A stretch of DNA of 61,131 nucleotides from an uncultured Eubacterium sp. (lineage in GTDB: Bacteria > Bacillota > Clostridia > Lachnospirales > Lachnospiraceae): the NCBI GenBank assembly GCA_947089855.1, contig CAMUML010000022.1:1-61131 (forward strand), given 5' to 3'. Made by a program: the position numbers and the translations under genes. Below are positions 3,440-52,420 of this stretch, piece by piece (position 1 is the first letter of the stretch; each line of letters opens with the position of its first letter). The notes under the pieces were generated by a model. It saw only the letters and a program-made list of their open reading frames with translations. It searched no databases and was not told where the DNA came from.

Positions 3440-3458
3440 TATTATTTTCCCCACTTTT

Positions 3459-4664: not shown

Positions 4665-4685
4665 CTTTTCACTCCCATTCTCTAA

Positions 4686-4841: not shown

Positions 4842-4852
4842 TAATGCTTTCT

Positions 4853-5677: not shown

Positions 5678-5701
5678 AACAAAATACCTCTCTTTACAAA
5701 G

Positions 5702-5729
5702 AAAAACTGGCCTTATGCAGCCAGTTTTT
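5702..5729 (-). terminator. Intrinsic terminator-like hairpin inside locus A
   Basis: AAAAACTGGC (5702-5711) pairs with GCCAGTTTTT (5720-5729), with an 8-base loop and an A/T run on each side, so it could work on either strand. On the minus strand it falls between the PseA-like gene and the SDR gene. The last three genes of the locus would thus need read-through, antitermination or their own promoter. Confidence 0.65.
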
Positions 5730-5843
5730 AAAATTTCTGATTAATGCAACTCCCACGGGTATATTGATTTTTAATAATTGGATGCCCAAACAGCCGGTTA
5801 TTTTTTTCCTACACTCTAGCATTCTCTTTGCCCTACTTTATTA

Positions 5844-10023: not shown

Positions 10024-10039
10024 GAAAAATACCCCGACA

Positions 10040-11341
10040 TTAATTATATTTGCGGAATACCGGCTTCATTACATTGCCAAGAATATAATCCTCTGCTTTG
10101 CCATTCAAAGAATCCGAATAAACCCTCATGGCTTTCCTGACTGCCTCCAATGTGATTTCAACCTCTTTTTCCGTGTGCCCATAAGCAATTGAAATATAAG
10201 GCATCAAAATACCTTCTTTTAGCATCTCCTGCATAAATACAGTACGGTATTCCATCGAAGGGAGCTTATCTTTTCCGCAAACAACAAGATTTGGGGAACA
10301 GTTAGCACCTGTAATATAAAAATAATCCTGGAGCAAATATTCCTTTGCAATATCCCTTATGCCGTCACATAATTTCTTTCCGATATTCCATATATGGTCA
10401 GTTACATGCAGCTGCTTATATACATTAACGGTTTCAATAAATGCCCCTAGCCCCATCATCTCCGCACCATGTGTAGTAGAGATCAAAAAGACGCGTTCCC
10501 TGCCAGGAAGCAAGCCGCCCAGCTCCATAATCTCCCTTTTGCCGCCAAGTGCCGTAACAGAAAATCCATTCGCCATGCCTTTTCCATAGGTAACAAGATC
10601 AGGCCTAACATCATAGTACTTACAAGCCCCCAGAAGATCCCAACGGAAACCAGTAATCATTTCATCCAGAATAAATACCACACCATATTCTTTGCATAAA
10701 TTACCAACTTCCTGTAAAAAATTGCCCTTTGGTTCTACTGATTCCGTTGGTTCCATAATCAGGCAGGCTACCTGGCCTTTATATTCTTCAAAAACTTTTC
10801 TAACCGAATGAATATCATTATAATGAAACTGCAGCGTCATTGCGGATATTTCTTCTGGTATGCCGCAGTTCATCACCGTATCGCCGATAAACCAGTCATC
10901 ATACGAAAAAAAAGAATGTTCTTTACACCGGACAATATATTTCTTTCCGGTATAAGCCCTTGCCAGTTTAATTGCCGCAGTTGTAACTGTCGAGCCATTT
11001 TTTGCAAATTTAACCATATCCACCCAGGGAATCAGATCCACAAGTGTTTCCGCTGCATCAACCTCCACTTTGGAAGCTTTGGTTGCTGTATTTCCATTCC
11101 TAATCTGTGAAATGGCCGCTTCTGCTATGCGTTCATAACCATATCCAACTGTTACCGAACGGCAGGCCATCCCATAATCAAGGTACTGGTTGCCATCCAC
11201 ATCCCATGCATATACACCCTTGGTATGGTCAATAACCCTCGGTGCATTCTCTGGAAAAACTTCATCTGTCCTGCTGTAAGTATGGGCACCAGCCGGAATA
11301 AACCGATGCGCCTTCTGCCCATAAATCTCATTCTTTGTCAT
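10040..11341 (-). CDS. Class III PLP aminotransferase (glutamate-1-semialdehyde-mutase-like)
   Basis: This is a fold-type I class III aminotransferase of 433 residues. It has the cofactor aspartate in FILDEMITGFR and the PLP lysine in TYGKGMANG. It resembles glutamate-1-semialdehyde aminomutase but sits between NeuC and the CMP-sugar synthetase, so tetrapyrrole synthesis is unlikely. The substrate is unknown; it may aminate an oxidised nonulosonate or an aldehyde side chain. Locus B carries a second member at 42548 in the equivalent pathway position. Confidence 0.85.
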   Translation of the reverse strand: MTKNEIYGQKAHRFIPAGAHTYSRTDEVFPENAPRVIDHTKGVYAWDVDGNQYLDYGMACRSVTVGYGYERIAEAAISQIRNGNTATKASKVEVDAAETLVDLIPWVDMVKFAKNGSTVTTAAIKLARAYTGKKYIVRCKEHSFFSYDDWFIGDTVMNCGIPEEISAMTLQFHYNDIHSVRKVFEEYKGQVACLIMEPTESVEPKGNFLQEVGNLCKEYGVVFILDEMITGFRWDLLGACKYYDVRPDLVTYGKGMANGFSVTALGGKREIMELGGLLPGRERVFLISTTHGAEMMGLGAFIETVNVYKQLHVTDHIWNIGKKLCDGIRDIAKEYLLQDYFYITGANCSPNLVVCGKDKLPSMEYRTVFMQEMLKEGILMPYISIAYGHTEKEVEITLEAVRKAMRVYSDSLNGKAEDYILGNVMKPVFRKYN

Positions 11342-11389
11342 TTTCCTTATCCCCTTTCCATCCGGCTTATGGACACCGGATGCATTCCC

Positions 11390-12562
11390 CTATTTTTTAT
11401 CAAAATCCAGGTCATAAAATTTCTTTTTCAGGTCAATCCTGCATCTGCATAAATAATCCCTAATAATCCATAAAATTTTATCCGAAGTATTTCCATCCCC
11501 GTAAGGGCTTGCCATCCTTCCAGCACGTTTGCGGAAATCTTCGGACAATGCCTTTTTAATTGCCATCCCGATAGCTTTTCTATCTGGGCTGCATTGAATT
11601 ACTGTATCCCCTTTTATCCTCCCTTTCTGCCGGTCACCGATATTTACCGTTACCGTTCCAAGCGCTGGCGCCTCCATCAACCCACTGGATGAATTTCCTA
11701 TTACAAAATCCGCATAATTTAACGCACTCAAATATCTTTGCATCCCTAAAGAATCAACCAGTTTAAAATCCATATGGGTATTTGCATAGTTTTCCAACAT
11801 CTGATTAATGCCTCTCCCATCCATATCTGCATTCGCTTTTGTAAACAAAAACTTAACACCAGAAGCTCCTTCTAAAGCTGCCAGCAATTCTTCCGTCTGC
11901 CTTCTGGCTGCACCATATTCCAATGTTACTGGATGGAACGTTCCAACTGCATAGTGGGGGCCCAATGAAAATCCTAGATCCTGCTCCAATTCGTGAAGGC
12001 TTAATAATTGCGTATGCCGGGCATTCTCAACGCCCATTGCACCCACATTAAACACACGGTCTGGCGCTTCGCCCATTTGAATCACACGCCTTTTGTATAT
12101 TTCCGTACTTGTAAAATGAAGATAACTCATTTTTGTAATCGCATGGCGTACCGCTTCATCAATCGCACCCTCTGTTGCCTCACCCCCATACAGATGGCAA
12201 ATCGGTATTTTTGCATTCATTGCTGCACAGCAGACCGCCAACGTCTCATACCGGTCGCCCAGCACAACAAGCATATCTGGTTTACAGGCATCAAAATATT
12301 CAGCAAAACTTATAACTGCCAGCCCCATACTCTTTGAAACTGCTACCGGTGTGTCAGAACTAAGGACGATTTCAATTTTTTTATCAATTGGGATATGGTC
12401 ATGTTCTATTTCCTGCACTGTCATTCCAAATTCTGGCGACAGATGTGTTCCGGTAACGGCCAGGCACATATCAAAGTCCGTTGCTTGATGAAATTTTATG
12501 ATCAAGCGCTTTAAAAGCCCGTATTCTGCCCTTGTAGCCGTCAAAATTACTATTTTTTTCAT
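11390..12562 (-). CDS. legG: UDP-sugar 2-epimerase (hydrolysing), NeuC/LegG-like
   Basis: The protein has the family N-terminus MKKIVILTATRAEYG, the nucleotide-sugar pocket GDRYET, and the C-terminal NSSSGLMEAP motif. NeuC-type enzymes release the 2-epimerised free sugar from the nucleotide, giving the mannosamine-type precursor for NeuB. Its 390 residues match the hydrolysing family. The start overlaps the NeuB stop by 4 bases. Together with LegB and LegC it favours a legionaminic-acid-type product over sialic acid. Confidence 0.9.
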   Translation of the reverse strand: MKKIVILTATRAEYGLLKRLIIKFHQATDFDMCLAVTGTHLSPEFGMTVQEIEHDHIPIDKKIEIVLSSDTPVAVSKSMGLAVISFAEYFDACKPDMLVVLGDRYETLAVCCAAMNAKIPICHLYGGEATEGAIDEAVRHAITKMSYLHFTSTEIYKRRVIQMGEAPDRVFNVGAMGVENARHTQLLSLHELEQDLGFSLGPHYAVGTFHPVTLEYGAARRQTEELLAALEGASGVKFLFTKANADMDGRGINQMLENYANTHMDFKLVDSLGMQRYLSALNYADFVIGNSSSGLMEAPALGTVTVNIGDRQKGRIKGDTVIQCSPDRKAIGMAIKKALSEDFRKRAGRMASPYGDGNTSDKILWIIRDYLCRCRIDLKKKFYDLDFDKK

Positions 12563-13554
12563 AACTCTATTAGCTCATCTTCTGCAAAGCTACGCTTCGC
12601 CTTCAATCCAATGACCTCCCTCCATCTCATGGGGCTAATGCCAGTTCCTGGACGTTTGGTTGTCAAATTGTCCATTGTAAATATTTCACCAGCTTCTATA
12701 TCTTTCGCAGCTATAATACTCTTTCGTACCACTGCAAGGTTTGCTTTCTCCATTTCTGTCGGGGCTTTCTGTCCATTTCCCATTGCTTGCGTTACATTCC
12801 TGATTGCCTGGATCATTGCGGCTAGCTCTGCTGGCTCAAGGCTTGCCTTATGGTCCGGGCCCTTCATACACTTATTTATCGTAAAATGCTTTTCGATCAT
12901 TACAGCACCCATTGCTACAGCTGCTATTGCCACTTCAATGCCCTGTGTATGGTCAGAATAGCCAATTTCACACTGACAATGCTCACTAATCAACAACATA
13001 GCTTTTAAATTTACATCCCGCATTTGCACAGGATAATCTGTTGTACAGTGAAGAAGCGTTATCTTACCAGCACCATTGGCTTTTAATACCGCAACCGCCG
13101 CATCTACTTCATCCAATGTACACATACCAGTAGATAGAATCACTGGTTTTCCTGTCTTTGCGATTTCCACCAGATAAGGGTAATTCGTAATCTCTCCAGA
13201 TGGAATCTTCCATAATTCCTGCAAATCATTCAAAAAATGCACACTGTCTATGTCAAATGGTGAAGAAAGAAATATAATCCCAATTTCTTTACAATATTTC
13301 GCCAATGCAACAAACTCATCTTTATTAAGCGCTAATTTTTCGAGCATCGATTGCTGTGGTTCGGAAATGCCCAAATTCTCTTTCTGATATGCAGCCATCT
13401 GTACATATCCACAGGCCAGGCTTTTTGCATGAAATGTCTGAAATTTTACAATATCTGCCCCACACTCTTTTGCTATCCTAGCCATTTTTTTTGCTGTTTC
13501 AATACTGCCATTGTGGTTTACACCTGCTTCTGCAATTACTACAATTTTATTCAT
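12559..13554 (-). CDS. legI: Nonulosonate synthase (NeuB/LegI family)
   Basis: The TIM-barrel synthase domain starts with IAEAGVNHNGS (metal and phosphoenolpyruvate site). It contains LSSPFD, GYSDHTQGIE and IEKHFTINK, and ends with a SAF antifreeze-like domain (KSIIAAKDIEAGE onwards). It condenses phosphoenolpyruvate with a six-carbon amino sugar to make the nine-carbon acid. The 331-residue length is standard. It overlaps NeuD by 4 bases and NeuC by 4 bases, so the three genes look translationally coupled. Confidence 0.92.
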   Translation of the reverse strand: MNKIVVIAEAGVNHNGSIETAKKMARIAKECGADIVKFQTFHAKSLACGYVQMAAYQKENLGISEPQQSMLEKLALNKDEFVALAKYCKEIGIIFLSSPFDIDSVHFLNDLQELWKIPSGEITNYPYLVEIAKTGKPVILSTGMCTLDEVDAAVAVLKANGAGKITLLHCTTDYPVQMRDVNLKAMLLISEHCQCEIGYSDHTQGIEVAIAAVAMGAVMIEKHFTINKCMKGPDHKASLEPAELAAMIQAIRNVTQAMGNGQKAPTEMEKANLAVVRKSIIAAKDIEAGEIFTMDNLTTKRPGTGISPMRWREVIGLKAKRSFAEDELIEL

Positions 13555-14207
13555 TTACGTTTTTCCTGGCCATTCCTATATAATATTGTGCCGCTTGCTA
13601 CATCCCGCAAAACAAGATTTCCTGCCCCGATAATACAATTTGCACCAACCTTCACTCCTTGTATTATGGTAGTGCCTGCTCCAATCAATGTATCATTTTC
13701 AATCGTTACACCGCCGCAAATCGTACTTCCAACCGCTACGTGGGAGAACCCTCCAACATAACAGCCATGTTCAATAATTGCCCCTGTGTTAATAATTGCA
13801 AAATCATCGATCATGGCCTCTGCGTTTACTACCGCACGTTTTCCAATAAACACACCTTTCCCTATTTTCGCTGATTCTGCTATAATTGATGATGGATCTA
13901 TGATTGCTGGAAAAGTAAATCCTATTTTCTGGGCACGTTCAAAAATATTACGCCTTAAGTCTGTTTCTTTAATACTTCCGACGGCAAGGAAAGCTTGGGT
14001 AACCCCGCTTTCATATAATTTAAGCAGCATATGGTCGTCTCCTGCCACCCTGCATCCTAGTATATGCTTCCCCTTTGGCAAAGTAGGGTCTGTAATGAAA
14101 ATATCCATATAAATACCCATACGAAGCACTGTATCAATGACAGATTTACAGTGCCCACCGCCGCCAATCAATACTATTTGTTTCTTACCCACGGATCCTT
14201 TTAACAT
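13551..14207 (-). CDS. NeuD/PglD-type sugar acetyltransferase
   Basis: The N-terminal GGGGHCKSVIDT motif is the Rossmann-like sugar-binding part, and a left-handed beta-helix of hexapeptide repeats follows from about residue 95 to 205. This two-domain layout and the 218-residue length match PglD/NeuD acetyltransferases. In a legionaminate route it would acetylate the 4-amino group made by LegC (LegH role); alternatively it O-acetylates the finished sugar. It is tightly packed between the nucleotidyltransferase and NeuB. Confidence 0.85.
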   Translation of the reverse strand: MLKGSVGKKQIVLIGGGGHCKSVIDTVLRMGIYMDIFITDPTLPKGKHILGCRVAGDDHMLLKLYESGVTQAFLAVGSIKETDLRRNIFERAQKIGFTFPAIIDPSSIIAESAKIGKGVFIGKRAVVNAEAMIDDFAIINTGAIIEHGCYVGGFSHVAVGSTICGGVTIENDTLIGAGTTIIQGVKVGANCIIGAGNLVLRDVASGTILYRNGQEKRK

Positions 14208-15287
14208 TTATTTTACATTCCCACTATGAATACGTTCTTCCATCTTTTTCATTTCCTCAAATTCACCCATATCAAGAAAAGAATTTTCACTGATCGGATA
14301 CATGCCTACCTGTTTTTCCTGGGACATCAGTTTTTCTGCCAGGTCAGTCATATGAAAAACCCTGTTAACTGGTATCCAATCCAGATAATCAGGGTTTACA
14401 ATATACATTCCTGTATTCACAATATACGATAGTTGCGGTTTTTCATACATAGAAGTAATAATCCCATGCTCCTTTGCTTCCAAAACCCCATATGGTATCG
14501 GTATATTTTTCAATGATGAAACAATCGTCATATCGTTTCCAGACGACAGATGGTGTTTCAATATCGCCTCATAATCTGCTTCGATCAGAATATCACAATT
14601 TGTAATCATAACAGGGGTATGGAATTGCTTCTTTATCAACCGCATACTCCCAGCCGTACCAAGAGGCTTTTCTTCTTCAATAAAATGAATTTTATATGGC
14701 AGGTTTACCTCTTTAAAATAAGACTTGATCATTTCCTTCTTATAATTTAGCGTTAAATAAAAATCCCTTGCCCCACAGCTATAAAACTTATTCAGTATCC
14801 GTTCAAGAATAGGTACATCCCCAACTGGAATTAACGGTTTGGGAAGGATTTTTGTATAAGGATATAAACGGGTCCCTTTCCCTCCTGCCATAATAACAAT
14901 GGATGAAGCCGACAAAACCTCACTATATTTTACTGTCCCAGACGCTCCGTGCTCATCCATAAATTTAATCTCTTTTATTTGATGGTTCTGATTTACAACC
15001 GGAACCGAGCTTATTTCATTTAATTTCATGAAATGAATATAATGGTCCGACTCACCCTGCATTAAAAACTTTACATCCCTATACGCTGCATCCCATACTG
15101 TCCCATCCACACTTCCTGTTTTCAGTATCCATCTTCTAATATCACCATCGGATAAGCTGCCATAAAGGCAGCTATTTTTATCAATCACATATACGATTCC
15201 CTTTGCATTTATATCTATCTTTTGCATTGCATCGACCAATGTATCACCATCTTTGCAAAGAAACTTTTCCAATTCCGATTTATCCAT
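14208..15287 (-). CDS. CBS-domain sugar nucleotidyltransferase (PtmE-like)
   Basis: Tandem CBS motifs (about residues 5-115) precede a nucleotidyltransferase domain with the signature MAGGKGTRLYPYTKILPKPL. This fusion resembles Campylobacter PtmE, which makes the GDP-linked aminosugar that feeds legionaminic acid; I infer the same role. The open frame begins with a TTG at 15311, but ATG 15287 is preceded by GAGGGTATAGGGAAG and gives the family N-terminus, so I start there (359 residues). The CBS pair may sense an adenosine ligand. Confidence 0.85.
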   Translation of the reverse strand: MDKSELEKFLCKDGDTLVDAMQKIDINAKGIVYVIDKNSCLYGSLSDGDIRRWILKTGSVDGTVWDAAYRDVKFLMQGESDHYIHFMKLNEISSVPVVNQNHQIKEIKFMDEHGASGTVKYSEVLSASSIVIMAGGKGTRLYPYTKILPKPLIPVGDVPILERILNKFYSCGARDFYLTLNYKKEMIKSYFKEVNLPYKIHFIEEEKPLGTAGSMRLIKKQFHTPVMITNCDILIEADYEAILKHHLSSGNDMTIVSSLKNIPIPYGVLEAKEHGIITSMYEKPQLSYIVNTGMYIVNPDYLDWIPVNRVFHMTDLAEKLMSQEKQVGMYPISENSFLDMGEFEEMKKMEERIHSGNVK

Positions 15288-15307
15288 CTTCCCTATACCC
15301 TCAGTGT

Positions 15308-16804
15308 TCAAAATGCTGCTGGTAATTTATCATACCCAAACCGATACGGATCCTCCTGAATCTCCATCAACGTTTGATACAAGGACTCAGCCAAAAGATG
15401 TATATTTTTTTCAGCCCTGGCATCCTGGGTATGCACATACATATTGCCCTTATATACCGTTCCTAAGACGGAACAAAGGTACTGTATCACGTCCTCCCTA
15501 GCCGGCCTGTGCCAACTAGAAACCGCCGGTAAATACTGCTGGTAAATATCATCCACTTTGATTACGCCTGGTGCATTTTCATAAAAAACATTTCCTGCAA
15601 TAATAACTGGTTTGCGAAGCAACATAGCTTCCCATCCTACGGAACCAGTAAGTGTAGTGACCACATAGGCATATTTCATTAATTCTCTCGAATTTTCCCA
15701 CGGGTCAATCAATACGACATTCGGATATTTTTTCAAAGCAGCATAAAACGATTCTTCACGGTGGCCAATATGCGCATAATGTTCTTTGACATATAAAAGC
15801 GTGTCCGCCGGAAGGCTCTTCGCCCAAGAATCTATAAAAAATAGCTGTTTCTCATATTTCTGCGCACAGACTATCGTTGAAGCCTCCGGCTGATAATGCA
15901 ATGCCATATAAACATACTTTTTTGAAAAATCCGCTTTATGATAGTATTTTTTACATTTGTTATACCTGAAAAAAAACTTCCATTTATCGAAAACCAATCC
16001 ATATTGCTGATAATACATATAAAAATATTTATTATTAAAATGTTTCCCATACCTTGCATGGATATATCTAGGAATTAATGTTGCAACATAACTAGGTTCC
16101 AGGTATGGCTGCGTATCCACATAAGCCATTCCGCTTGCCTTTATATCATGTTCTTCATATCTTTTCAAAAATTCTTCTGCCTGTTTCCAAAGTTTTTCAT
16201 TATACTTTCTATTTTTATAATCAGGATCAGCATGCATATCGTATAAATATGGAACCATTGAGAAAAAATGATGCGAAGCTTCTATTTCCCCTCTGCATAC
16301 CATTTGTGTAAGATACTTTACCCCGTATTTACGGCCAACAATATATGCAACCGCCGAATGCAACGTAGAAACTGCTTCATCATAGTAATAATCTACGTTA
16401 CCATTTTTAAATAATGCTTCCCAAAAAAAGAAATATCCTGCCGTTATTTTTACACAATAGTTAAAATCAGCCTCGATCAAAAACCTATCCATGTAAATAT
16501 ACTTCCAGATTGGAGCACAATTATATTTCTTTTCAAACGCAACAAATTTTTCATAAGTAAATTCATTCCAGTGTTTCTGAAAAAACCTGGAAACCTCAGC
16601 TATTTTGATCCCTAATTCCCCTTTCAAATATCCCTTCACATCATTGGTTTCTTTTGCATCCGATGTAATAAAGATCCCTTTTAAACCTGGCAGCCTTTCA
16701 CTTTTTAACTTTTTAAATAAAAGTGAAGAAAAAACATCATAAGATGGCCTAGCTTGAAAGCAAATGGTCAAACCGCCTTTTTTCATATCCTGTTGTGCCT
16801 CCAT
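15308..16804 (-). CDS. Capsule-polysaccharide-biosynthesis-like transferase
   Basis: A large protein of about 498 residues with no standard glycosyltransferase signature in its first half. Its C-terminal third resembles Kdo/capsule synthesis transferases (KpsC/KpsS-like): a helical segment VVTTLTGSVGWEAMLLRKPVIIAG, where the T-G-S-V-G-W-E core and the following hydrophobic strand are typical of the donor-binding site. It may transfer the CMP-activated nonulosonate. Start uncertain: ATG 16804 has a poor ribosome site, while ATG 16786 has GGAGG eleven bases upstream. It lies between Wzx and the nucleotidyltransferase. Confidence 0.65.
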   Translation of the reverse strand: MEAQQDMKKGGLTICFQARPSYDVFSSLLFKKLKSERLPGLKGIFITSDAKETNDVKGYLKGELGIKIAEVSRFFQKHWNEFTYEKFVAFEKKYNCAPIWKYIYMDRFLIEADFNYCVKITAGYFFFWEALFKNGNVDYYYDEAVSTLHSAVAYIVGRKYGVKYLTQMVCRGEIEASHHFFSMVPYLYDMHADPDYKNRKYNEKLWKQAEEFLKRYEEHDIKASGMAYVDTQPYLEPSYVATLIPRYIHARYGKHFNNKYFYMYYQQYGLVFDKWKFFFRYNKCKKYYHKADFSKKYVYMALHYQPEASTIVCAQKYEKQLFFIDSWAKSLPADTLLYVKEHYAHIGHREESFYAALKKYPNVVLIDPWENSRELMKYAYVVTTLTGSVGWEAMLLRKPVIIAGNVFYENAPGVIKVDDIYQQYLPAVSSWHRPAREDVIQYLCSVLGTVYKGNMYVHTQDARAEKNIHLLAESLYQTLMEIQEDPYRFGYDKLPAAF

Positions 16805-16826
16805 TCTACAATTGTTTTGTCATATC

Positions 16827-18266
16827 CTATTTCTCTATTTTGCACACCTTAATCATCAATAATGAAATACCAGACAAATATATCACTGAAAGTATGATGC
16901 CTACATAAATATTAGGAATCAAATAATATAATACTATGGTTGGAAAAACAGATACAAAAACTGGCATCCAGCTGCTTTTTAATAAAACTATTTTCCTCTC
17001 TTCAAATCCGTTGGAAATTTTATTTACCAGCAATAAAGAAAAAGCCGCATAGGAAGTTGCCGTTCCAATTGCAACATTTTCTATATTTCTTCCAAATATG
17101 CTTACTAAACCAACCGAAAATATAATATTAAACAAGCATAAAGCAATGGATGTCCATAAAAGGTCTTTATTCCTTTTTAAAATGCTAAAAATATTGCCAT
17201 AAAGCATCGTAGACCCATAGATTGCGATACCAATCAGCATAATCTGGGCAGCTTCGATACCTGACATATAACCTGGCATAACAATCTTTACAAAAACAGG
17301 CAAAACATAATATCCTGCTACACAAATAATACTCGTACAAATAGAATTGATACATGTATACCTGCTGCATGCCCTAACTAATAACCCTTCATCCCCTGTC
17401 CTTCCATAGTCCCTTGAAATTTTTATATAAAATACCTGGGACACCGACTGTGGGATCAATACCATTGCTGTAAACCCCAATTGAGCCACACTATAGATTC
17501 CAAGCGCTTTCGTATCCATAAATCCTAAAATTACAAACTTATCTATGGATGCTACGGCTGTCCATACAAAGCTGTTCACCATCAGTGGAAATCCCGTCCT
17601 TAAGCATTCTGCTAAAATACTTTTATTTATTTGTAACCGGATCCCTTTCAGTGTTTTGCCATAATACAGCAAAACAGCGGCTAGGCCAGATATGGCAGGC
17701 ATTACATAAAGCCCATAATATCCAGACACCCTAACAGCTATCAGCCCCACTGCAGCTCCAAGCATTGTCCTTATAACCGTTACAAGCGCAGTATAATGGT
17801 AGCCCCCTTCCATCCTCATTGTATTCATTCCAAAATCAGACAGTGTATTCACAATCAACAGCAGCATTGACAGCATATATCCAATATAATATTCTTTTTT
17901 AAAGCTTCCTGACAAATATGCAGCTTCCAATACCACGCCAATTATTATTGTCAGCAGTACATAAATCCCCATAAAAAAAGTAAACGCTGTATTTTTTAAA
18001 TCCCCTAATTTTTCTTCCTGGCCTGCGCCTGCCAATTGCGGATAATCCCGATTATATGCATTTAAAACCCCTAATTGCGCATAGGAAAGGTATGTCTGAA
18101 GCAGAAGGCAGGTAGAATAGATGCCATATTCCAGCGGAGGGACATACCTTCTGGCAAGTACTGTAAAACAAAAATTCAGTGCTGCTGAAATCACTGCAGC
18201 GGCAGATACAATTACAAAGTCTGCATTTCTCAGCTTTTCAGTAATTGTTTTACGTATTTTTCCCAT
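16827..18266 (-). CDS. wzx: Wzx-type polysaccharide flippase
   Basis: The protein is hydrophobic along its whole length, with about 12 or more predicted membrane segments and an N-terminal charged stretch, as in the MATE/PST family of lipid-linked oligosaccharide flippases. It should carry undecaprenyl-linked repeat units across the membrane. The open frame reaches 18293, but ATG 18266 has GGGAAAGG just upstream and gives the more usual N-terminus. It overlaps the acyltransferase gene by 17 bases. Locus B has its own, unrelated-looking Wzx. Confidence 0.85.
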   Translation of the reverse strand: MGKIRKTITEKLRNADFVIVSAAAVISAALNFCFTVLARRYVPPLEYGIYSTCLLLQTYLSYAQLGVLNAYNRDYPQLAGAGQEEKLGDLKNTAFTFFMGIYVLLTIIIGVVLEAAYLSGSFKKEYYIGYMLSMLLLIVNTLSDFGMNTMRMEGGYHYTALVTVIRTMLGAAVGLIAVRVSGYYGLYVMPAISGLAAVLLYYGKTLKGIRLQINKSILAECLRTGFPLMVNSFVWTAVASIDKFVILGFMDTKALGIYSVAQLGFTAMVLIPQSVSQVFYIKISRDYGRTGDEGLLVRACSRYTCINSICTSIICVAGYYVLPVFVKIVMPGYMSGIEAAQIMLIGIAIYGSTMLYGNIFSILKRNKDLLWTSIALCLFNIIFSVGLVSIFGRNIENVAIGTATSYAAFSLLLVNKISNGFEERKIVLLKSSWMPVFVSVFPTIVLYYLIPNIYVGIILSVIYLSGISLLMIKVCKIEK

Positions 18267-18837
18267 ATACCCTTTCCCATCGGCCGCTTTCAAAACTATA
18301 CCTTTTTACTACTTTTGCTGGTATGCCAACAGCGACACTATAATCTGGAATATCTTTTGTAACAACAGCATTAGCCCCTATGATACAGTGCCTGCCAATC
18401 TTTGCACCAAGCACACACACATTTTCGCCAAGCCATGAACCTTCTGCTATCCTCACCTTGCCAATATGATACACACCTTGCCTTAAGACTGGCTGTACAA
18501 TGTCCTCATAATTATGGCCGCAATCTGTTATATATACTTTATCAGCTATCAGGACATTATCTTCAATCGTTACACTATGTTTTGCTATGATATGGGCAAA
18601 ATGCCCGATATGCACCCCATTTCCAATCTTTAGCGTAATATTATTTTTGCTGTTTCCCATAAGCCACGCCCCATGTGCGATCACTGCATAACGGCCAATA
18701 ACAACAGACCTTACATCCGAAAATTGCATCGGTGCAAAAATTACAGATCCCTTTCCAATTTTCTTAAATCTTCTGGCGTATAGATACTTTGTAATGAAAA
18801 GATATTTTATCCAGTTTACCCTATTTATATTTTCCAC
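18250..18837 (-). CDS. Hexapeptide-repeat acyltransferase
   Basis: This is a left-handed beta-helix protein with hexapeptide repeats (I-G-x-x-V-x pattern) from about residue 45 to 170, ending with GIPAKVVKRY, a typical WcaF/maltose-acetyltransferase tail. It likely O-acetylates a sugar of the repeat unit. The start is a GTG at 18837 with AAAGGGA upstream. A MITE lies between it and the polymerase gene. Confidence 0.8.
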   Translation of the reverse strand: MENINRVNWIKYLFITKYLYARRFKKIGKGSVIFAPMQFSDVRSVVIGRYAVIAHGAWLMGNSKNNITLKIGNGVHIGHFAHIIAKHSVTIEDNVLIADKVYITDCGHNYEDIVQPVLRQGVYHIGKVRIAEGSWLGENVCVLGAKIGRHCIIGANAVVTKDIPDYSVAVGIPAKVVKRYSFESGRWERVYGKNT

Positions 18838-18870
18838 ACCAAGTAATCCCTTTCATCTATTCTTGACTAA

Positions 18871-19027
18871 GGAACTGTCGCAAAATAACTTGTGCAGTTT
18901 GCTGGTCTAAATCTCCGATAGCACCCTGCAAAAATCCTCAACATAGCCCACTATGCCTCCAGTTTTTGCAGGGCACTCTCGAAAATTTATCCTCAGCAAA
19001 CTGCACAAGTTATTTCACGGCAGTTCC
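18871..19027. mobile_element. 157-bp palindromic MITE, copy 2 (diverged)
   Basis: It has the same tips as the other copies (GGAACTG at left, CAGTTCC at right) and is flanked by TAA at 18868-18870 and 19028-19030. The internal sequence differs from copies 1 and 3 but keeps the palindromic arms and the CCGATAGCAC and GCACTCTCGA boxes. The wzy stop codon (complement of CTA at 19027-19029) lies on the element/target junction. Confidence 0.8.
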
Positions 19028-20271
19028 TAACACTTACGGCATAAAAATTTCTTCTGCTTCGTCCTATCCGCGGCTTTTGCTATGTTCAATATTAATTGAT
19101 TATACTCACTAGCTATAAACAACATCATAACTGGCATTTCTAAGATGGGTTCTGACATATTTACAGCTACAGTAGTAATAATAAAAATTAGATAACAGTG
19201 TATTTCCTTGTCCTTTTTTTTCAGGTATACAATATTTTTCACCACTGGTACCGCAACTACGAAAAGCCCGCATAAACCCATTGTCATCAAAAAAGCCATT
19301 AAGCCATTGGAACTGCCCCTTGTATCGTAACCTTGAATACGATAAAATTCACTAAAGTTTTGAAATCCACTTCCTGACACTGGATTTTTTAAAAAAGCCA
19401 GGAATCCATTCACAAGGTCATTTACTCTTAACATATAAGATCCGGAAGTATTTTTCTTATGATTCAGTGCCATATACGCTACAAACACAGCCGACAACAG
19501 CATAGGCACAGCTATTATTTTTCTTCCTGGCCTCGTTATCTTAGCTTCAAAAATCATGTACATGGAAAGCAGCATTGCCATTAATCCAATGGCTGTTGTA
19601 GAGAATGTCAGTAGAATATTCATACAATAGAAAACAACCCAGCCTATTTTATTTTTTGTTTTTGCAACAAACAACAAATAATACAATCCAAATATAAGAT
19701 AAATTCCTAATATTCCATGCTCCCAAAAGATCGATGTATACTCGTAAAATTTAAACTCTCCTATTTTTTGCACCACTAAATCTCTAAAATAATATATCCC
19801 AAAATAGTTGCGATACACAACCCCATTGAGCGGATTTCCAATTAATGTATACGAAATACGTACCTGCAAAATATTAATTAAAATATAAAAAACAAAAGAC
19901 CATATACATATTGCAGTTATAATCTTATATAAAATAATAACCAGGTCGATTTGCCTTTTCGTACAATAACGGATAAATCCAAAATATCCTATAAACCAGA
20001 CAATCCGTAAAAGCAACGCAATCCATGTGGCACTATAATGAATAACACAGGCAGTATAATAAATAAACGATATTATAAAAGCTGTTGCCAGTCTTTTTCC
20101 AATACCGCCAGAGATACTGGCAAAGCAGAGCAACCCCAGCAACAGTATATGCAAAAACCCCCGGAGCCCATCATAAGCATTCACCGAGAAAATGACACTC
20201 CCTGACATATATACGGTAATAAATACCGTTAAATAGGCCGTGATCTTGCCCGCAGATATTCTCAGCACCAT
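19027..20271 (-). CDS. wzy: Wzy-type O-antigen/capsule polymerase
   Basis: A 414-residue membrane protein with about 10-11 hydrophobic segments and a long central extracytoplasmic loop, the usual shape of Wzy polymerases, which join flipped repeat units outside the membrane. Wzy proteins are poorly conserved, so the call rests on topology and position beside wzx, wzz-like and glycosyltransferase genes. AGGAGG lies ten bases before ATG 20271. The last codons and the stop are set by a MITE inserted at 18871-19027, so the C-terminus may differ from relatives. Confidence 0.75.
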   Translation of the reverse strand: MVLRISAGKITAYLTVFITVYMSGSVIFSVNAYDGLRGFLHILLLGLLCFASISGGIGKRLATAFIISFIYYTACVIHYSATWIALLLRIVWFIGYFGFIRYCTKRQIDLVIILYKIITAICIWSFVFYILINILQVRISYTLIGNPLNGVVYRNYFGIYYFRDLVVQKIGEFKFYEYTSIFWEHGILGIYLIFGLYYLLFVAKTKNKIGWVVFYCMNILLTFSTTAIGLMAMLLSMYMIFEAKITRPGRKIIAVPMLLSAVFVAYMALNHKKNTSGSYMLRVNDLVNGFLAFLKNPVSGSGFQNFSEFYRIQGYDTRGSSNGLMAFLMTMGLCGLFVVAVPVVKNIVYLKKKDKEIHCYLIFIITTVAVNMSEPILEMPVMMLFIASEYNQLILNIAKAADRTKQKKFLCRKC

Positions 20272-20312
20272 ATTTCAATTTCCTCCTGAATTGCTGCCCA
20301 GCAAACGGGCTT

Positions 20313-21317
20313 TTAATGGATCAGTATCTCACGGATCCAAATAGGTAGTGAATACTTTTCTTCCATTTCCTTTGGCAGCATCACATAATCCTGTTCCAAA
20401 AACTGGCCTGGAACAGAAAACGAGCCTTCATCATAAATATATATATTCGCAGGGTTATAGAAATCTTCTTTTGCCACTAATCTATTATTTGTAACCAATT
20501 TACAATGATGCCCTAGGCTTTCAATGGTACGCATAGTCAAGCCATTTTGTGCTGGGTCAGTATAATCTACCACTATTTTTGACTCGGAATATATCCTGTT
20601 AGTTTCCAGCAGGCCCAATGGTTTGAAAAATATATCCTGTTTGCCCGTATTACTAACAAAACGCTTATCTTTATCCAAATACTTTCTTTTATAATAAATC
20701 AGCTTCTTTACATATATATAAGCAAAATTTCTAATATTCCGCTTGTCTTGCAATTTCTGAATTTCTTCATATATTTTTAAACGTTCTGTGTGCAGGGTAC
20801 AAATATAAGCTATATCAAATTTCCGTTTCTTGCTACACCTCTTTGAAACATAAAATAACGGCCTATAGATCCAATGGAACGTTTCTGCATCTATACGGTC
20901 AAATGTATACTGATAATCAAAGCATTCCGCGATTACTGCTGCATTAGGATTCCGTTTCACGCTATCCCATTGATAAATGATATAACTGCATTTTTTCCAC
21001 CTACTATGCATATCATCCATAATACTTTTATTTAGTGAACTGCCTCTTATTACAAAAACATAATCCATATCCGTTTTTATCTGATTTAGTTTCCACTTAT
21101 AATATATATTTTGTAATACCTTTTCAAAACACTTTACATAAACATGAACAAATCTATATATATAACTGATCCCCTCCAAGTTCTCATAAATAGGATATAC
21201 CTTTGCTTTCTGCCTTTTTAACTCTCTAATAATATAATCCTCGTATCCATGAAATTTAGGTAGGATTAATACAATCCTTTTCCCTGCCAGGTTATTTTTT
21301 TGTTTTTTATAGTTCAT
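20313..21317 (-). CDS. Probable glycosyltransferase (CgeB/Eps5J-like)
   Basis: The 334-residue soluble protein has a Rossmann-like first half and a second half with SESKIVVDYTDPAQNGLTMR, a motif shared by lipopolysaccharide-synthesis proteins of the CgeB/GT1-like group. It probably transfers a sugar to the lipid-linked repeat. Donor and linkage are not visible. The start overlaps the upstream Stealth gene's stop by 4 bases. Base composition is very AT-rich compared with locus B. Confidence 0.6.
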   Translation of the reverse strand: MNYKKQKNNLAGKRIVLILPKFHGYEDYIIRELKRQKAKVYPIYENLEGISYIYRFVHVYVKCFEKVLQNIYYKWKLNQIKTDMDYVFVIRGSSLNKSIMDDMHSRWKKCSYIIYQWDSVKRNPNAAVIAECFDYQYTFDRIDAETFHWIYRPLFYVSKRCSKKRKFDIAYICTLHTERLKIYEEIQKLQDKRNIRNFAYIYVKKLIYYKRKYLDKDKRFVSNTGKQDIFFKPLGLLETNRIYSESKIVVDYTDPAQNGLTMRTIESLGHHCKLVTNNRLVAKEDFYNPANIYIYDEGSFSVPGQFLEQDYVMLPKEMEEKYSLPIWIREILIH

Positions 21318-22330
21318 ATCTCATATCCCGATTTATATGGTAATATCTTATCAAATGCTTCCACTAACTTTTTCTTATTGTACACAAATTCTCTTCTTGC
21401 CATCTCTCCATCATTGACTGCTATCATCTTACCTTTTCGCTCCACAATATATTTATATACCGTGTTTATATTATCCCTGTTCTTTTCAAGGATAAAACTT
21501 TTTCCTATGTTAATATCCCTCGGTTCAAATCTACCGCCTGCAATCTGCCAGTTCCGCATAACCCACTGGGTATAGTCTAACTTACCTCTAAACCTGTTCA
21601 TACAAGTTTCATCAAAAAGTTTTTCTTCTTTTTCCCATAATTCTTTAAATGTACTTTTTAAATATGAATTTGGCAAATGCGGCTGAAAGATTCCTGGAAA
21701 TCTAGGACATGGAAGCAGATACAACGTCCGCAAAAGATACCGCCTGTTTTTAACATTGATCCATTTATTCCAATTTTTGAAAATACTATGATGAAAATCA
21801 AAATATTTATTTACAATACCGATAGCCTGAAAAGATGCATAATTAAAACCAAAGTTTGCATCTAGGCAATGTACATTTAATGCTGCTGCATCACACGGTT
21901 TCCCATTTTTAAAAAAATCAGTTTCAGCCATTTCTGATATTACAAACGTATCATCATTAAAATATACAAATTGTTCTGCCAACCCATTGATTCTATGCAG
22001 ATTATTTTCTATACAATTGCAATTAAACGTCGGCAAATATTTTGATGGAATAAAATCACTATGCTTAACAATATTTAATTTTGGATGATCGGTATTCAGC
22101 CATTTCGGAAGATGGCCATACGTAACAAAATGTATCTTATGAACCCAAGGCGTATACTGCTCTACACCCCGAAACCAATATTGTAAGTTTCCCCAGTCAC
22201 GGTACCTCTGCTCCCTTATATCTGACTGCCACTCTGGCGCATATCGCTCTTTTTCCTTTCTCCAAGCCTGATCATTTCCATCTACCCAAACAATTATAAA
22301 ATCAATTCCTTTTTTTTGTTTTTTCACCAT
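21314..22330 (-). CDS. Stealth-family sugar phosphotransferase
   Basis: Stealth conserved regions are visible in order: IDFIIVWVDGNDQAW (CR1, residues 9-23), a WGNLQYWFRGVEQYTPW stretch (CR2), FVYFNDDTFV (around residue 120), and a C-terminal CR3/CR4 region. Stealth proteins move a sugar-1-phosphate onto another sugar, producing phosphodiester-linked capsules. Its presence suggests the locus A glycan contains a phosphodiester bridge. It is translationally coupled with the GT4 before it (overlap 29 bases) and the transferase after it. Confidence 0.85.
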   Translation of the reverse strand: MVKKQKKGIDFIIVWVDGNDQAWRKEKERYAPEWQSDIREQRYRDWGNLQYWFRGVEQYTPWVHKIHFVTYGHLPKWLNTDHPKLNIVKHSDFIPSKYLPTFNCNCIENNLHRINGLAEQFVYFNDDTFVISEMAETDFFKNGKPCDAAALNVHCLDANFGFNYASFQAIGIVNKYFDFHHSIFKNWNKWINVKNRRYLLRTLYLLPCPRFPGIFQPHLPNSYLKSTFKELWEKEEKLFDETCMNRFRGKLDYTQWVMRNWQIAGGRFEPRDINIGKSFILEKNRDNINTVYKYIVERKGKMIAVNDGEMARREFVYNKKKLVEAFDKILPYKSGYEI

Positions 22331-23765
22331 GCTTTTTCCTCAAAATAACCATATTTGCCAACTCAACAATTTTCAAATAAGAATTTTTCCGATCAAACTG
22401 CCTTTCACACAATTTTCTCGCATTTACACCATATCCTTTTAATTTTACCAGATCTGATAATAACGCAAGAATACTCCTACTGAGAGCCTCTTCATTTTCA
22501 GCTTCCACATTGACACCGATTTTATATACATCCACAAGCCTACAAAATTCAGCATTCTCAAGCGTGTTGATTATCGGCCTTCCTGCTGCCAGATAGTCAC
22601 CGATTTTATTAACAATGCTCTGTGGTGCCCCTTTTGCGAACGAATTTACAAGTATATCAGATTTCATAAGCACCGCCGCCATTTGCGCATGTTCTACATA
22701 CCCCAGAAACTCTACATTTGTACATCTAAGATCCTTCGCTAACTGTTCGGCTTCCTCTTTAAGCGGACCATTCCCCAAAATCTTAAATTTTATCTGATCA
22801 TGCCCTTCCGCTTGCAGCAATCCCGCTGCTTTTACTAAATGGCCAATGGCATAGCTATGTCCAATAGATCCGGCATAGGTAACCCACACTTCATGGCCCG
22901 GCTTCTTAACAGCATCTATATTCCCTTCCGCCTCCTTGTCAAATGCATCTAAATCACATCCAACATACACTGTCCTGTACGGAATATGCCGCCCATTATA
23001 CTTCGATGCCCGCAAACTATATTCTTTCGAAGTCCCTATCACAGCATCCGCATATTGATAAGTTTTTTCTGCATCTCTTTGAAACGGAAAAAAGATCAGT
23101 TTTCGTATTACTGGCTTATCTAAAATCATTGCCATTGCTTCCGGCCATAGATCCTCAATATCAGCAATAAACGGAATGTGATGTTGAAAGCAGTATTTCC
23201 CCACAACCTTACTAATATTGTTTGGCGGCAATGAACAATATACCACATCATAGGCTACTTTACTTTTTTCTAATACCTTCTTAACCTTCCATTCAAAAAC
23301 AAAATTACTTATTTCCCTCCGAAAATCCACATTTTTTTTATAAGATGGACAATCAATATAGATGATATTAAAATTACTGGACAATACCTTATCACGCTGC
23401 ACTTTTTCATGATGTTCAAAACTGCTCGTAATAACCGTTACATCATATCCATATTTCTGAAACATTTTCGCCAAATAATAAAATCTCGTTGGTCCCGCTT
23501 CTTCTGGAAGCCAAAAATATTGTGACGATATAATCGCTATACGTTTCTTAGAATCTAAACTATGTCTATTATTCAATCTTCCATAATCCTTTTTCTGCTG
23601 CCCAAAACAGCTCTTTACACACGCTTTATAACACAACTGCACTGTCAATCCCGCTCCAATGAATAAAAAATTTCTCTTAATCATTAAAAAACAATACCCC
23701 AGCCATCCCCTATCACCGCCTATGCCTGTACCTCTGGGCATGCTCCGCCATCCCCACAGCCCCAT
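22302..23765 (-). CDS. GT4-family glycosyltransferase (WbuB-like)
   Basis: The core from about residue 72 (RIAIISSQYFWLPEEAG) is a WbuB/WcaI-like GT-B transferase, with the donor-site region KGAPQSIVNKIGDYLAAGRP near the C-terminus. The N-terminus is unclear. ATG 23765 has GGAG six bases upstream and adds a short, partly hydrophobic leader; ATG 23684 would start at MIKRNFLF. The hydrophobic stretch FLFIGAGLTVQLCY could be a membrane anchor. It is the first transferase of locus A after the Wzz-like gene. Confidence 0.8.
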   Translation of the reverse strand: MGLWGWRSMPRGTGIGGDRGWLGYCFLMIKRNFLFIGAGLTVQLCYKACVKSCFGQQKKDYGRLNNRHSLDSKKRIAIISSQYFWLPEEAGPTRFYYLAKMFQKYGYDVTVITSSFEHHEKVQRDKVLSSNFNIIYIDCPSYKKNVDFRREISNFVFEWKVKKVLEKSKVAYDVVYCSLPPNNISKVVGKYCFQHHIPFIADIEDLWPEAMAMILDKPVIRKLIFFPFQRDAEKTYQYADAVIGTSKEYSLRASKYNGRHIPYRTVYVGCDLDAFDKEAEGNIDAVKKPGHEVWVTYAGSIGHSYAIGHLVKAAGLLQAEGHDQIKFKILGNGPLKEEAEQLAKDLRCTNVEFLGYVEHAQMAAVLMKSDILVNSFAKGAPQSIVNKIGDYLAAGRPIINTLENAEFCRLVDVYKIGVNVEAENEEALSRSILALLSDLVKLKGYGVNARKLCERQFDRKNSYLKIVELANMVILRKKHGEKTKKRN

Positions 23766-23870: not shown

Positions 23871-25301
23871 TCATTTATCCTGTGAAAATGCCACCGCCCC
23901 CAATACCGAAATGCCATTATCCAGGTAAAATTCCATCGCATCATCAATCATCTGGCGTGTCGTCGTGCCAATCCTGCATACCAGCAGGACATTCCCCGCT
24001 TCTGCCAATCCATCCCATAAGGCCGTATCCAGGCTGGCATTCTCAGCCATCTCCATCTTTATCCCCCAGCCCGCAAGCTGCCCGGCAATGCTGTCCAAAC
24101 ACTCCTTTTCCTGCTCACCATACAAGAAATCAGACGCCGCATACAGCCATGCCACTCCCTGCTTTTTGCAGGCAAGCCTAATCCGGTTGAGTACCTGCGC
24201 CCGTCTACGGCTATAAGCATCCGGTTCCCCTAGCTTTCCTCCCCCGCCTTTCAGAAAAAGTTCGCCGTAAAATGGAAATTGGTACATCCGTTTCATTTCC
24301 CCTGAGCTTTTTACCGTATCCCGGAACAGGTACAGACACGTAAAAACACCACAGTACGCAAAAATGCCCCCTGCAAACCCAAGAAATATATATTTTATGC
24401 CAAGCCCTTTATTTCCATTGTCCGTATCTTCCTCCTGGCCGTCTTCCCCTTCGTTACCAGCCTCCTCTTGATATGCTTCCATCTGCCCCTTACTAAAAGC
24501 ATCCGTCATTGCCTTTAAACTTGCCTGGTTGGAAGACAGGAGTGCCCGTTTATCACGCTGCTGTGCCTGCAGCCCACTGTCTACCGTCACGCTTTTTGCA
24601 ACATCTACTAGCACCAGCTTATGGCTACCCGACTGCTTCATAACCCTGCCCGCATACGTTTCCAGTACAGACTGCATATCCTTTGCCATCTGCCCTGCCA
24701 TGCTGGCATTTTTCCCTGTTAGTTCTACATAAAAAAGAGCCTCCACCTGCATATTGGCATCCGCCGCATCTTCCACAACCACCTGGTAAGGGGAGCTGTA
24801 TGTTTTCTGATACGCCGTCATTAGCTCCGCCAGATAGCTCTTGTCCATTTTCCAGGCACTACTGCCGGATTTTTTTAGCGCATCCGCAGCTCCGCCATTT
24901 ACAACATAATTCAAATAGCTTTCCATAATCCGCGGCAGCTCCTGCCGTTTTGCATGGTCAATGCAGTAAAGCAGAATAACTTTATCTTTATGGTAGGGGT
25001 CGGCCTGCATCAATATGGAATTTTCCAAATACGCTTCCAGGCTACCCGTTTCTCGTTTCAGCTGCACTGCTTCCGCAACCCCCTGTGCTTCTTCCTCTGT
25101 CAAACTGGCCTCTTCAGCTGTTCCAGGCGCAGCTGCATCCTTGCCGTCTCCGCCCTTCATCCATCCATACCCGCTCAAAACCACGGCACCGGCCACAGCA
25201 CAAGCAGCAGCCTGCTTCCACTTCCTGTAAAGCCTGCGCAACAGGTCCGCCAGGTCAACCTCTATATCTTCTGTCCGTTTCCAAGAATACCGTTTATCCA
25301 T
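23871..25301 (-). CDS. Wzz-like chain-length protein with a degenerate BY-kinase domain
   Basis: Transmembrane segments lie at about residues 29-48 and 304-326, enclosing a long extracytoplasmic helical region, the Wzz/CpsC layout. Beyond the second membrane segment, residues about 365-476 look like the C-terminal half of a bacterial tyrosine kinase (VLLVCRIGTTTRQMIDDAM, then SVLGAVAF), but there is no Walker A GKS/T, no Walker B aspartates and no tyrosine-rich tail. It likely controls chain length as a Wzc-like scaffold without kinase activity. A close paralogue opens locus B at 50396-51844. Start ATG 25301 (MDKRYSWKRT) is supported by the paralogue. Confidence 0.8.
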   Translation of the reverse strand: MDKRYSWKRTEDIEVDLADLLRRLYRKWKQAAACAVAGAVVLSGYGWMKGGDGKDAAAPGTAEEASLTEEEAQGVAEAVQLKRETGSLEAYLENSILMQADPYHKDKVILLYCIDHAKRQELPRIMESYLNYVVNGGAADALKKSGSSAWKMDKSYLAELMTAYQKTYSSPYQVVVEDAADANMQVEALFYVELTGKNASMAGQMAKDMQSVLETYAGRVMKQSGSHKLVLVDVAKSVTVDSGLQAQQRDKRALLSSNQASLKAMTDAFSKGQMEAYQEEAGNEGEDGQEEDTDNGNKGLGIKYIFLGFAGGIFAYCGVFTCLYLFRDTVKSSGEMKRMYQFPFYGELFLKGGGGKLGEPDAYSRRRAQVLNRIRLACKKQGVAWLYAASDFLYGEQEKECLDSIAGQLAGWGIKMEMAENASLDTALWDGLAEAGNVLLVCRIGTTTRQMIDDAMEFYLDNGISVLGAVAFSQDK

Positions 25302-25508: not shown

Positions 25509-25583
25509 TAACCTCAAGCAGTATAACAAATCCCATAACCTTAGCTGCCATACCAAAACCATACACACCGGCCCTAAACCAGA

Positions 25584-25967
25584 CTATGCCTCATTCATAA
25601 TCTCAGCCACCGACTTCATAATCCTGACATACATCGCATAGCTGTCCGCCTGCTCCTCGGTTCCGCACCCATTACATTGCTTTTCCCTAGAACCCTTCCT
25701 GGCACTGCCCCACATGTCGAGCGCTGCCCCAGACGGGCTTGCCTCACCCCAGAGCAGCTCATCTGCCCCGGCATCCAGCACACTGCATATACTTACAAAA
25801 GTATCCATGCTCATAACCCTGCTCCCGCGCTCAATATGCCCCAGAAATGACATACTGATACCGCACCGCTTTGCAAGCTCATCCTGCGACCAGCCCTTTG
25901 CTTTCCTCACCTGGCGTATCCGCATCCCGATTTTGCCATAATCCAATTCCCGCATGATCTTGCCCAT
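25584..25967 (-). CDS. XRE-family regulator, first gene of locus A
   Basis: The 127-residue protein has a Cro/C1 helix-turn-helix at about residues 14-70 (IRQVRKAKGWSQDELAKRCG, then SFLGHIERG) and a short C-terminal tail ending YAMYVRIMKSVAEIMNEA. It is roughly three-quarters identical to the first gene of locus B, tail included, so the tail is probably functional. It is the first gene downstream of the invertible promoter and probably controls its own or the sister operon. ATG 25967 or ATG 25955 are both possible starts; the paralogue does not decide. Confidence 0.88.
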   Translation of the reverse strand: MGKIMRELDYGKIGMRIRQVRKAKGWSQDELAKRCGISMSFLGHIERGSRVMSMDTFVSICSVLDAGADELLWGEASPSGAALDMWGSARKGSREKQCNGCGTEEQADSYAMYVRIMKSVAEIMNEA

Positions 25968-26057: not shown

Positions 26058-26084
26058 CATAACATTTTATAACAAACTGTTATG
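26058..26084 (+). repeat. Inverted repeat A, operon-proximal recombination site
   Basis: The site has the form CATAACATTTT, a spacer beginning ATAACA, then a right arm ending TGTTATG. The reverse complement of the distal site has the same spacer. The outer arms are palindromic. Confidence 0.85.
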
Positions 26085-26318
26085 TTCAAAATACTGCTTT
26101 TGAATCCCTGGAAGCCTTGATTTATAAGGGTTTTTGAAAAATTTATTATCATTTTAATATTTTAGTTTAATTGCATTTTTCCACCGCTTTATTGTTTATT
26201 TTATTACTTTCTTAGTATGGTTTTCTTTCTAAAATTTGTTGAATTTATACAAAAAATGTAAGATATTTCGCTTATAAAAAGCTAAAACTAGAAAAAATAG
26301 ACAATTTATTCTTTGCAC

Positions 26319-26347
26319 TTGCAAAAATCATCAGTCTGATATAGAAT
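26319..26347 (+). promoter_or_regulatory. Promoter inside invertible segment A
   Basis: TTGCAA (26319-26324), a 17-base spacer and TAGAAT (26342-26347). The start point would be near 26354, directly at the edge of the distal repeat. The same boxes with the same spacing occur at 52655-52683. It currently reads rightward into a region with no recognisable gene. Confidence 0.8.
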
Positions 26348-26355
26348 ATTAAACA

Positions 26356-26382
26356 GATAACATTTTGTTATAAAATGTTATC
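26356..26382 (-). repeat. Inverted repeat A, distal recombination site
   Basis: This is the inverted partner of 26058-26084. Read on the minus strand it is GATAACATTTT, a spacer beginning ATAACA and a right arm ending TGTTATC. It differs from its partner at one internal position and at the outermost base pair. Confidence 0.85.
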
Positions 26383-52393: not shown

Positions 52394-52420
52394 CATAACA
52401 TTTTCTATCATATTGTTATG
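52394..52420 (+). repeat. Inverted repeat B, operon-proximal recombination site
   Basis: Left arm CATAACATTTT, spacer CTATCA, right arm ending TGTTATG. Its inverted partner is at 52692-52718. Confidence 0.85.

Follow-up and report, generated by a model that had tools for sequence, protein, structure and literature searches.

A 273-bp segment (26084..26356) in front of a polysaccharide locus, here called locus A, in the 61,131-nt stretch of uncultured Eubacterium sp. DNA that we analysed (the window) is very probably a phase-variable invertible promoter, assembled in its OFF orientation and belonging to a genus-wide family; we put the probability of this reading at about 0.86. It draws on comparisons of sequence, in which we found paired sites, cores that match within pairs, a conserved promoter, and relatives assembled in both orientations. 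We propose that a tyrosine recombinase encoded elsewhere would bind the two 9-bp arms (ATAACATTT and AAATGTTAT) of each 25-bp site, and that strand exchange across a shared 7-bp core, TATAACA, would invert the segment. As assembled, the promoter would fire outward and leave locus A OFF; after inversion it would adjoin the XRE-side site and transcribe the XRE gene, a Wzz/Wzc-like gene and the nonulosonate polysaccharide operon behind them. The 11 other XRE genes that we found in this genome are preceded by the same design, the purpose of which would presumably be variation of surface glycans.

Repeats, promoter and genes of locus A

The proximal, XRE-side repeat (26059..26083, plus strand) and the distal repeat (26357..26381, minus strand), both putative recombination sites, are 25 nt long, inverted, complementary at 24 of 25 positions (96%) and separated by 273 nt. 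Both are near-palindromic, the right one reading ATAACATTT-TATAACA-AAATGTTAT on the minus strand, and the 7-bp centre is identical in the two. The preliminary description of this DNA had reported near-palindromic 27-bp inverted repeats 271 bases apart with a common central spacer; these are the same pair with one extra base on each side, and the spacer corresponds to TATAACA. A scan of the window for pairs of 25-mers that match inverted at 23 or more of 25 positions, with starts 100–500 bp apart, gave five places: the locus A pair, a sister pair at 52395/52693, and three palindromic intergenic hairpins. A cut of 20/25 gave 76 overlapping matches in the window, while seven of eight first-order Markov resamples gave none and one gave 12.

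Between the repeats lies a sigma-A-like promoter, TTGCAA-17-TAGAAT (26319..26347, plus strand), which faces away from the XRE gene, as had been claimed earlier, and which is a conserved feature of type I elements at this position. Promoter-like matches in the locus A region are not clearly above chance (8 versus 4.7 ± 2.3 expected), and the promoter is credible because the same block recurs at the same place in sister elements, not by its consensus match alone. This 60-nt block, which ends at the repeat, has the consensus ta.t.ccAATTTTtt..Tt.gt.TTGCAAAA.a.aaaaAatTggTaTAgAATACTT..AG over 82 rows. A promoter-bearing segment thus lies between inverted repeats, the arrangement of an inverton. Near the segment end opposite the promoter we found a box, CCTTGATTTATAAGG (26115..26129), that recurs in many elements of this genome.

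Locus A begins with a gene for an XRE-family regulator (25584..25967, minus strand; HTH_3/HTH_31), followed by a gene for a Wzz/Wzc-like polysaccharide co-polymerase (23871..25301, minus strand). The product of the latter has no Pfam match of its own at E 0.001, and its predicted fold resembles Wzc (Foldseek E 2.5e-8, with pLDDT 78.6, pTM 0.43 and a TM-score of only 0.26), so that the wzz gene previously placed second in the operon is upheld as Wzz/Wzc-like by predicted fold. The second gene after the XRE is of this kind in this genome and in one other (G010); one member of the second-gene family matches Wzz weakly, below the cut-off (E 0.0025), and two hydrophobic segments are present in three of the four Wzz/Wzc-like members shown. 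According to Pfam, the rest of the locus (2303..23765, minus strand) encodes a glycosyltransferase, Stealth, a flippase, an NTP transferase, a PglD-like acetyltransferase, NeuB, a UDP-GlcNAc 2-epimerase, a CMP-sugar synthase and aminotransferases, together with frames that have no Pfam match. With the NeuB, epimerase, CMP-sugar synthase, flippase and glycosyltransferase genes all present, the earlier assignment of locus A to a nonulosonate (legionaminate-type) polysaccharide is strongly supported.

Locus A also contains three copies of a palindromic, MITE-like hairpin of about 158 bp (25352–25509, 4685–4842 and 18870–19028), the first two of which are 99.4% identical. The copy at 25352–25509 sits between the XRE and the Wzz/Wzc-like gene, where it could limit read-through and with it the proposed switching of the whole 24 kb; the surrounding stretch, 25335–25520, folds at about −96 kcal/mol.

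The sister switch, in front of locus B, has its proximal repeat at 52395..52419 (plus strand; core TCTATCA), its distal repeat at 52693..52717 (minus strand) and its promoter at 52655..52683 (plus strand). The latter faces away from the XRE regulator gene that heads locus B (51901..52278, minus strand), and the switch is accordingly OFF. Locus B likewise encodes NeuB, a CMP-sugar synthase and glycosyltransferases.

Paired sites and orientations across the genus

A DNA search of the genome itself returned further copies of the element, including the one at 52395–52717, and all 12 P0001-like XRE genes found in this genome (E 1e-20) have a repeat pair upstream, the pairs spanning 287–299 bp start to start. 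One locus, L046 (contig 2, 56061–56432), has an XRE gene with an internal TAG stop and may for that reason be impaired.

We searched 13 genomes of the genus, among which G000 is this genome, G004 is E. plexicaudatum ASF492 and G005 is 'Eubacteriaceae bacterium' B36_36_MI_H, which we take to be a cultured isolate. XRE relatives numbered 144 in 11 of the 13, with none in G008 and G011, and the fetched loci gave 146 tblastn hits. A named scan confirmed 136 relatives; the 80 of these that are listed by source come from ASF492, B36_36_MI_H, and uncultured Eubacterium or Lachnospiraceae MAGs. Elements were sought only upstream of XRE genes, and a pairing was counted if its repeats agreed at 19 or more of 25 bases and its cores at 6 or more of 7. 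The resulting 111 rows were reduced to 109 pairings by dropping two split hits (L218, L219), and these represent 108 physical elements, one in L201 having been counted for two XRE genes. About 108 elements thus occur in ten of the 13 genomes, 12 of them in this genome, with 5 to 19 pairings in each of the nine others; the preliminary description had made no mention of so large a family. Element size ranges from 227 to 407 bp start to start.

Of the 146 XRE hits, 35 had no counted pair: 19 (including L155) were short of upstream sequence and 16 gave none despite having it, which indicates that not every XRE gene has a switch. At L372 (G012 contig 69, 5511–5829) we observed a switch for which a reading of the frames in the surrounding 10 kb revealed no recognisable XRE gene; its promoter faces a 644-codon frame, and switch sites may therefore not be tied to XRE genes.

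The arm pattern ATAACA-N13-TGTTAT was matched in 12 of the 13 genomes, with 0–25 sites per genome compared with 0–2 for the reversed-pattern control. The strict site form, ATAACATTTT-N5-AAAATGTTAT, the only form sought in 397 genomes drawn from the family, occurred in two of them, both among the three genomes of this genus that the draw held. Outside the genus, a search with the whole segment gave one short, weak match in each of 5 of 48 genomes.

The mechanically called genes behind the XRE form clusters of 89, 26, 12 and 5, plus five singletons. Ten second-gene representatives were scanned, yielding eight glycosyltransferases, one aminotransferase and one weak Wzz match; it is on these ten, together with loci A and B, that the glycan role of the loci rests. 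An overlap of 4–11 bases between the XRE gene and the second frame, seen in many loci outside this genome, suggests that the two form one operon.

To characterize the cores, the best site pair before each XRE gene was chosen by its outer arms alone, blind to the centre. A pair was found for 116 of the 146 hits, 110 of them distinct, and in 97 of these 110 the 7-bp cores are identical when read inverted; none is identical in direct orientation, and the maximum among 20,000 shuffles was 12. Two of the 13 non-matching pairs differ by one base, and the others are apparently mispaired, in most cases with poor arms. Exact cores are found in 12 of 12 pairs in this genome, 8 of 8 in G001, 8 of 9 in G006, 12 of 12 in G010, 10 of 10 in G007, 14 of 16 in G003, 15 of 18 in G005, 10 of 12 in G004, 5 of 8 in G009, 3 of 4 in G002 and 0 of 1 in G012. 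Among the 89 best-armed pairs, 85 cores are exact, and core mismatch is 0.019 within loci versus 0.464 between them, compared with 0.107 and 0.138 for the arms. Strand exchange across the core would account for cores that match within pairs while the arms barely do better than between loci. The pairs used for the orientation counts below are not independent evidence on this point, since they were selected for cores that agree at 6 or more of 7 bases.

Tyrosine-recombinase sites consist of two inverted arms around a 6–8 bp overlap that must match between partners, and inverted arms around a pair-matched 7-bp core are what we found. Serine-invertase sites, such as those of Mpi or Hin, have 12-bp arms around a 2-bp crossover and are of even length, whereas the sites described here are odd 25-bp dyads with 6–7 bp matched within pairs rather than 2. 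A serine enzyme is disfavoured because of this geometry, and the sites point to one of the tyrosine class.

Several further features of the sites were observed. The core TATAACA is common to 26059–26083 and L050 (contig 29 of this genome), and two other cores are also shared within this genome; recombination between loci is conceivable for those with the same core. The idea that the core is a barcode specific to each locus was not supported, as 15 same-core pairs occur within genomes versus 10.6 expected for 105 elements. In several genomes (not in G006) no half-site is better conserved than the outer half of the XRE-side site, which averages 0.08 mismatches in this genome versus 0.83–1.92 for the other halves and may have a second function. 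At L159–L163 and L165, all six G001 loci with a recognised promoter and all OFF, the ends are of the TTAACA type at the distal site and of the ATAACA type at the proximal one, L160 having GTAACA at one end of its distal site; judging from these ends, a switch may have one site stronger than the other.

Orientation was scored with position matrices built from away-facing rows. The promoter faces away from the XRE gene in 98 of the 109 pairings and toward it in 8; the remaining 3 have no recognised promoter. On the XRE side the ON rows score 28.7–50.4, and on the opposite side their scores are negative. Four are single elements (L115 in G010, L126 in G009, L148 in G003 and L169 in G007) and four lie within duplicated structures of G005 (L190, L195, L199 and L201); at L195 the copy closest to the XRE gene is OFF, and the one that faces this gene is an inverted copy farther away. 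We consider confidence in the switch slightly lowered because half of the ON rows sit in such structures. The preliminary description had proposed a search of other genomes for the two orientations: homologous elements do show both, in the 8 of 109 that are ON and in the paired segments of G005, but no inverted copy of the window's own locus A switch was seen in the genomes compared. All 12 elements of this genome are OFF, as are all 10 counted in ASF492. A second type of promoter, with motifs such as CGAATAGAATACTTATAGGC, was observed in 18 of the 109 pairings (L126, L139–L144, L147, L148, L198–L201, L215 and L216), in segments of 312–344 bp start to start.

In G005, three segments, of 251, 299 and 287 bp, are assembled both ways round with 100% identity, as is a fourth with 99.7% over 336 bp. 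These repeated XRE-switch units resemble two forms of a single locus that the assembler has joined up; should they be true duplications, a segment has inverted there too. Furthermore, a contig ends within 200 bp of the XRE gene on the switch side in 18 of the 146 hits, in some cases at the repeat itself, and on the other side in only one. Contig ends at the switch would be expected if reads of both forms forked the assembly, which makes them indirect evidence.

These results also bear on whether the palindromes could instead be fixed XRE operators that flank the promoter and repress it by looping, with no inversion. Palindromes of similar length are bound by XRE proteins; the sites here are all near-palindromic, and their pairs were found in front of XRE genes. 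Fixed operators, however, need no pair-specific inverted core, and would not account for cores that match inverted in 97 of 110 pairs and directly in none, for the promoters of L115, L126, L148 and L169 that face the XRE gene, or for three G005 segments in both orientations at 100% identity. The G012 switch with no recognisable XRE gene within 10 kb likewise speaks against such operators, which we regard as highly improbable.

Somewhat less improbable, though still not favoured, is a two-way selector, in which the outward promoter drives a distal gene or an antisense RNA. In L201 (G005 contig 47, 41746–42082), two divergent XRE genes flank one switch at the end of a contig, which may be either such a selector or an assembly artefact. 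Against a general role of this kind, in the 102 rows with enough flank (9 further rows were too short) the longest distal frame runs away from the XRE gene in 44 and with it in 49, and 9 have no 90-codon frame. The distal side offers no consistent target for the outward promoter. In the window, the frames taken as the nearest distal genes (26803–27519 and 53646–55682, both on the minus strand) read toward the switches.

Candidate recombinases

Apart from the gene at 60038–60958 of the window and one on contig 43, none of a first set of recombinases that we collected had a match within the fetched loci. The best candidate invertase for an invertible promoter of this family is, on sequence grounds, a group of recombinases of about 190 aa, present in 7 of the 11 genomes that have XRE loci and absent from both genomes that lack them; ASF492 has two copies. 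They resemble the tyrosine-type DNA invertase models PRK09870 and PRK09871, presumably of FimB/FimE type, at scores well below the cut-off. Six genomes each have a single copy of one form that is 87–100% identical to the query; judged by eye, its downstream neighbour is the same throughout, and its upstream neighbour is the same in G003, G004, G005 and G009. The small recombinase is absent from the assemblies of G000, G001, G006 and G012, and cores still match in the first three of these; either those four genomes use another enzyme or the gene lies in missing sequence.

It is in this light that we weighed whether the elements of this genome are locked OFF after loss of the invertase, with only relatives still switching. 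All 12 are OFF, the small recombinase is missing from this assembly, and several sites have worn arms. However, all 12 cores are exact under arms-only pairing, which would be unexpected after long inactivity, and the assembly is only 89.7% complete. ON forms account for 8 of 81 elements in genomes with the small recombinase versus 0 of 25 in those without, a difference that is not significant (Fisher p = 0.19). We therefore consider a locked state unlikely, if the least unlikely of the alternatives to a switch that is still active.

Other recombinases were considered and set aside. The window encodes a stand-alone XerC/D-like tyrosine recombinase (60038–60958), whose family occurs in part of the genus: relatives of 62–73% identity are found in G001, G002, G004, G007 and G010, matches of only 31–32% in G003, G005, G006 and G012, and none in G009 at E 1e-25. 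As a general invertase it was rejected, since relatives also occur in both genomes without XRE loci (64–65% in G008, 68% in G011). The gene for an XerD-like enzyme (contig 6) keeps its synteny across the genus and has a counterpart in G011 (63%), and none turned up in G008 or G009 at the cut-off applied; an XerS-like enzyme (contig 65) is 84–90% identical to those of G001, G006, G009, G012, G008 and G011. Either as the invertase is possible but unsupported. Among the recombinase families compared, G001 and G012 share only these two and one 70%-identical pair, which by its look we take for ICE integrases. Resolvase-family enzymes (PF00239) are present in all 13 genomes and hence uninformative, and a classical dif site, tried for comparison with the arms, gave fewer matches than the reversed-pattern control in most genomes.

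Tyrosine recombinases use their sites for integration as well, and with a XerC/D-like gene in the window the repeats might be mobile-element remnants or integrase attachment sites rather than a regulatory switch. Such an origin would leave unexplained the narrow size range of the elements (99 of 109 within 265–325 bp), their placement before XRE/glycan operons and the conserved promoter beside one repeat, and the distribution of the window recombinase, with relatives in two genomes without XRE loci and distant or no matches in G003, G005, G006, G009 and G012, does not fit it either. We give this explanation the least credence of all.

Relation to known switches

The best-known case of capsule switching at many loci through promoter inversion is Bacteroides, in which the first gene of the capsule loci encodes a small regulator, the UpxY antiterminator. 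B. fragilis is described as having invertible promoters at seven of eight PS loci (PMC10939037), and Mpi as a serine-type master recombinase for at least 13 scattered regions (PMC5903667). As in the PSA–PSH/Mpi system, many polysaccharide loci per genome each stand behind their own putative invertible promoter here. As an invertible promoter, the locus works like the Bacteroides capsule switches, with another site type and another first gene: in contrast to the Mpi/UpxY system, the first gene encodes an HTH XRE protein, the core is an odd, pair-matched 7 bp and not a serine-type 2-bp crossover, and the host is a member of the Clostridia. The same architecture with another site and regulator in a Clostridia genus would constitute a convergent solution to pressure from phages, immunity or niche, if we infer its purpose correctly. 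A more elaborate proposal, that independently of Bacteroides a whole Clostridia genus has evolved up to about 20 phase-variable surface-glycan loci served by one small unlinked tyrosine invertase, with XRE proteins acting in trans on all switches to keep few loci ON at once, seems doubtful to us when all its parts are taken jointly; the DNA-binding region of the XRE proteins is nearly invariant between paralogues.

Our search of the open-access literature, judged by titles and the openings of abstracts, found no paper on this switch family, and neither 'invert' nor 'inversion' appears in the main text of a paper on the altered Schaedler flora (PMC9600240). The genus includes a member of that flora, E. 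plexicaudatum ASF492, and because it is a defined flora used in mice, the switches, the enzyme and the XRE hypothesis are directly testable.

Among Clostridia, the C. difficile pdcB switch (Cdi2) is an invertible promoter of 174 bp with 19-bp repeats, for which that report did not identify a recombinase (PMC9286219), and the cwpV and flagellar switches use the tyrosine recombinase RecV (PMC5903667). The elements described here resemble the C. difficile switches (cwpV, flg, cmr, pdcB) in host class, short imperfect inverted repeats and probable recombinase class. Compared by description, they differ in forming one homologous family before XRE-led operons, where C. difficile has seven switches before diverse genes. 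In the hCom2 community, a Clostridia inverton group (139) has been tied to a tyrosine recombinase group (35), in a report whose main text is without Lachnospir-, Eubacterium or XRE (PMC11892184). Nearly all members of group 139 are described in a figure legend of that report as having this invertase nearby, unlike the elements found here, the comparison again being one of descriptions.

Finally, the candidate recombinases recall FimB/FimE of the fim switch in their size of about 190 aa and their similarity to tyrosine-type invertase models, but their genes do not adjoin the switches counted here.
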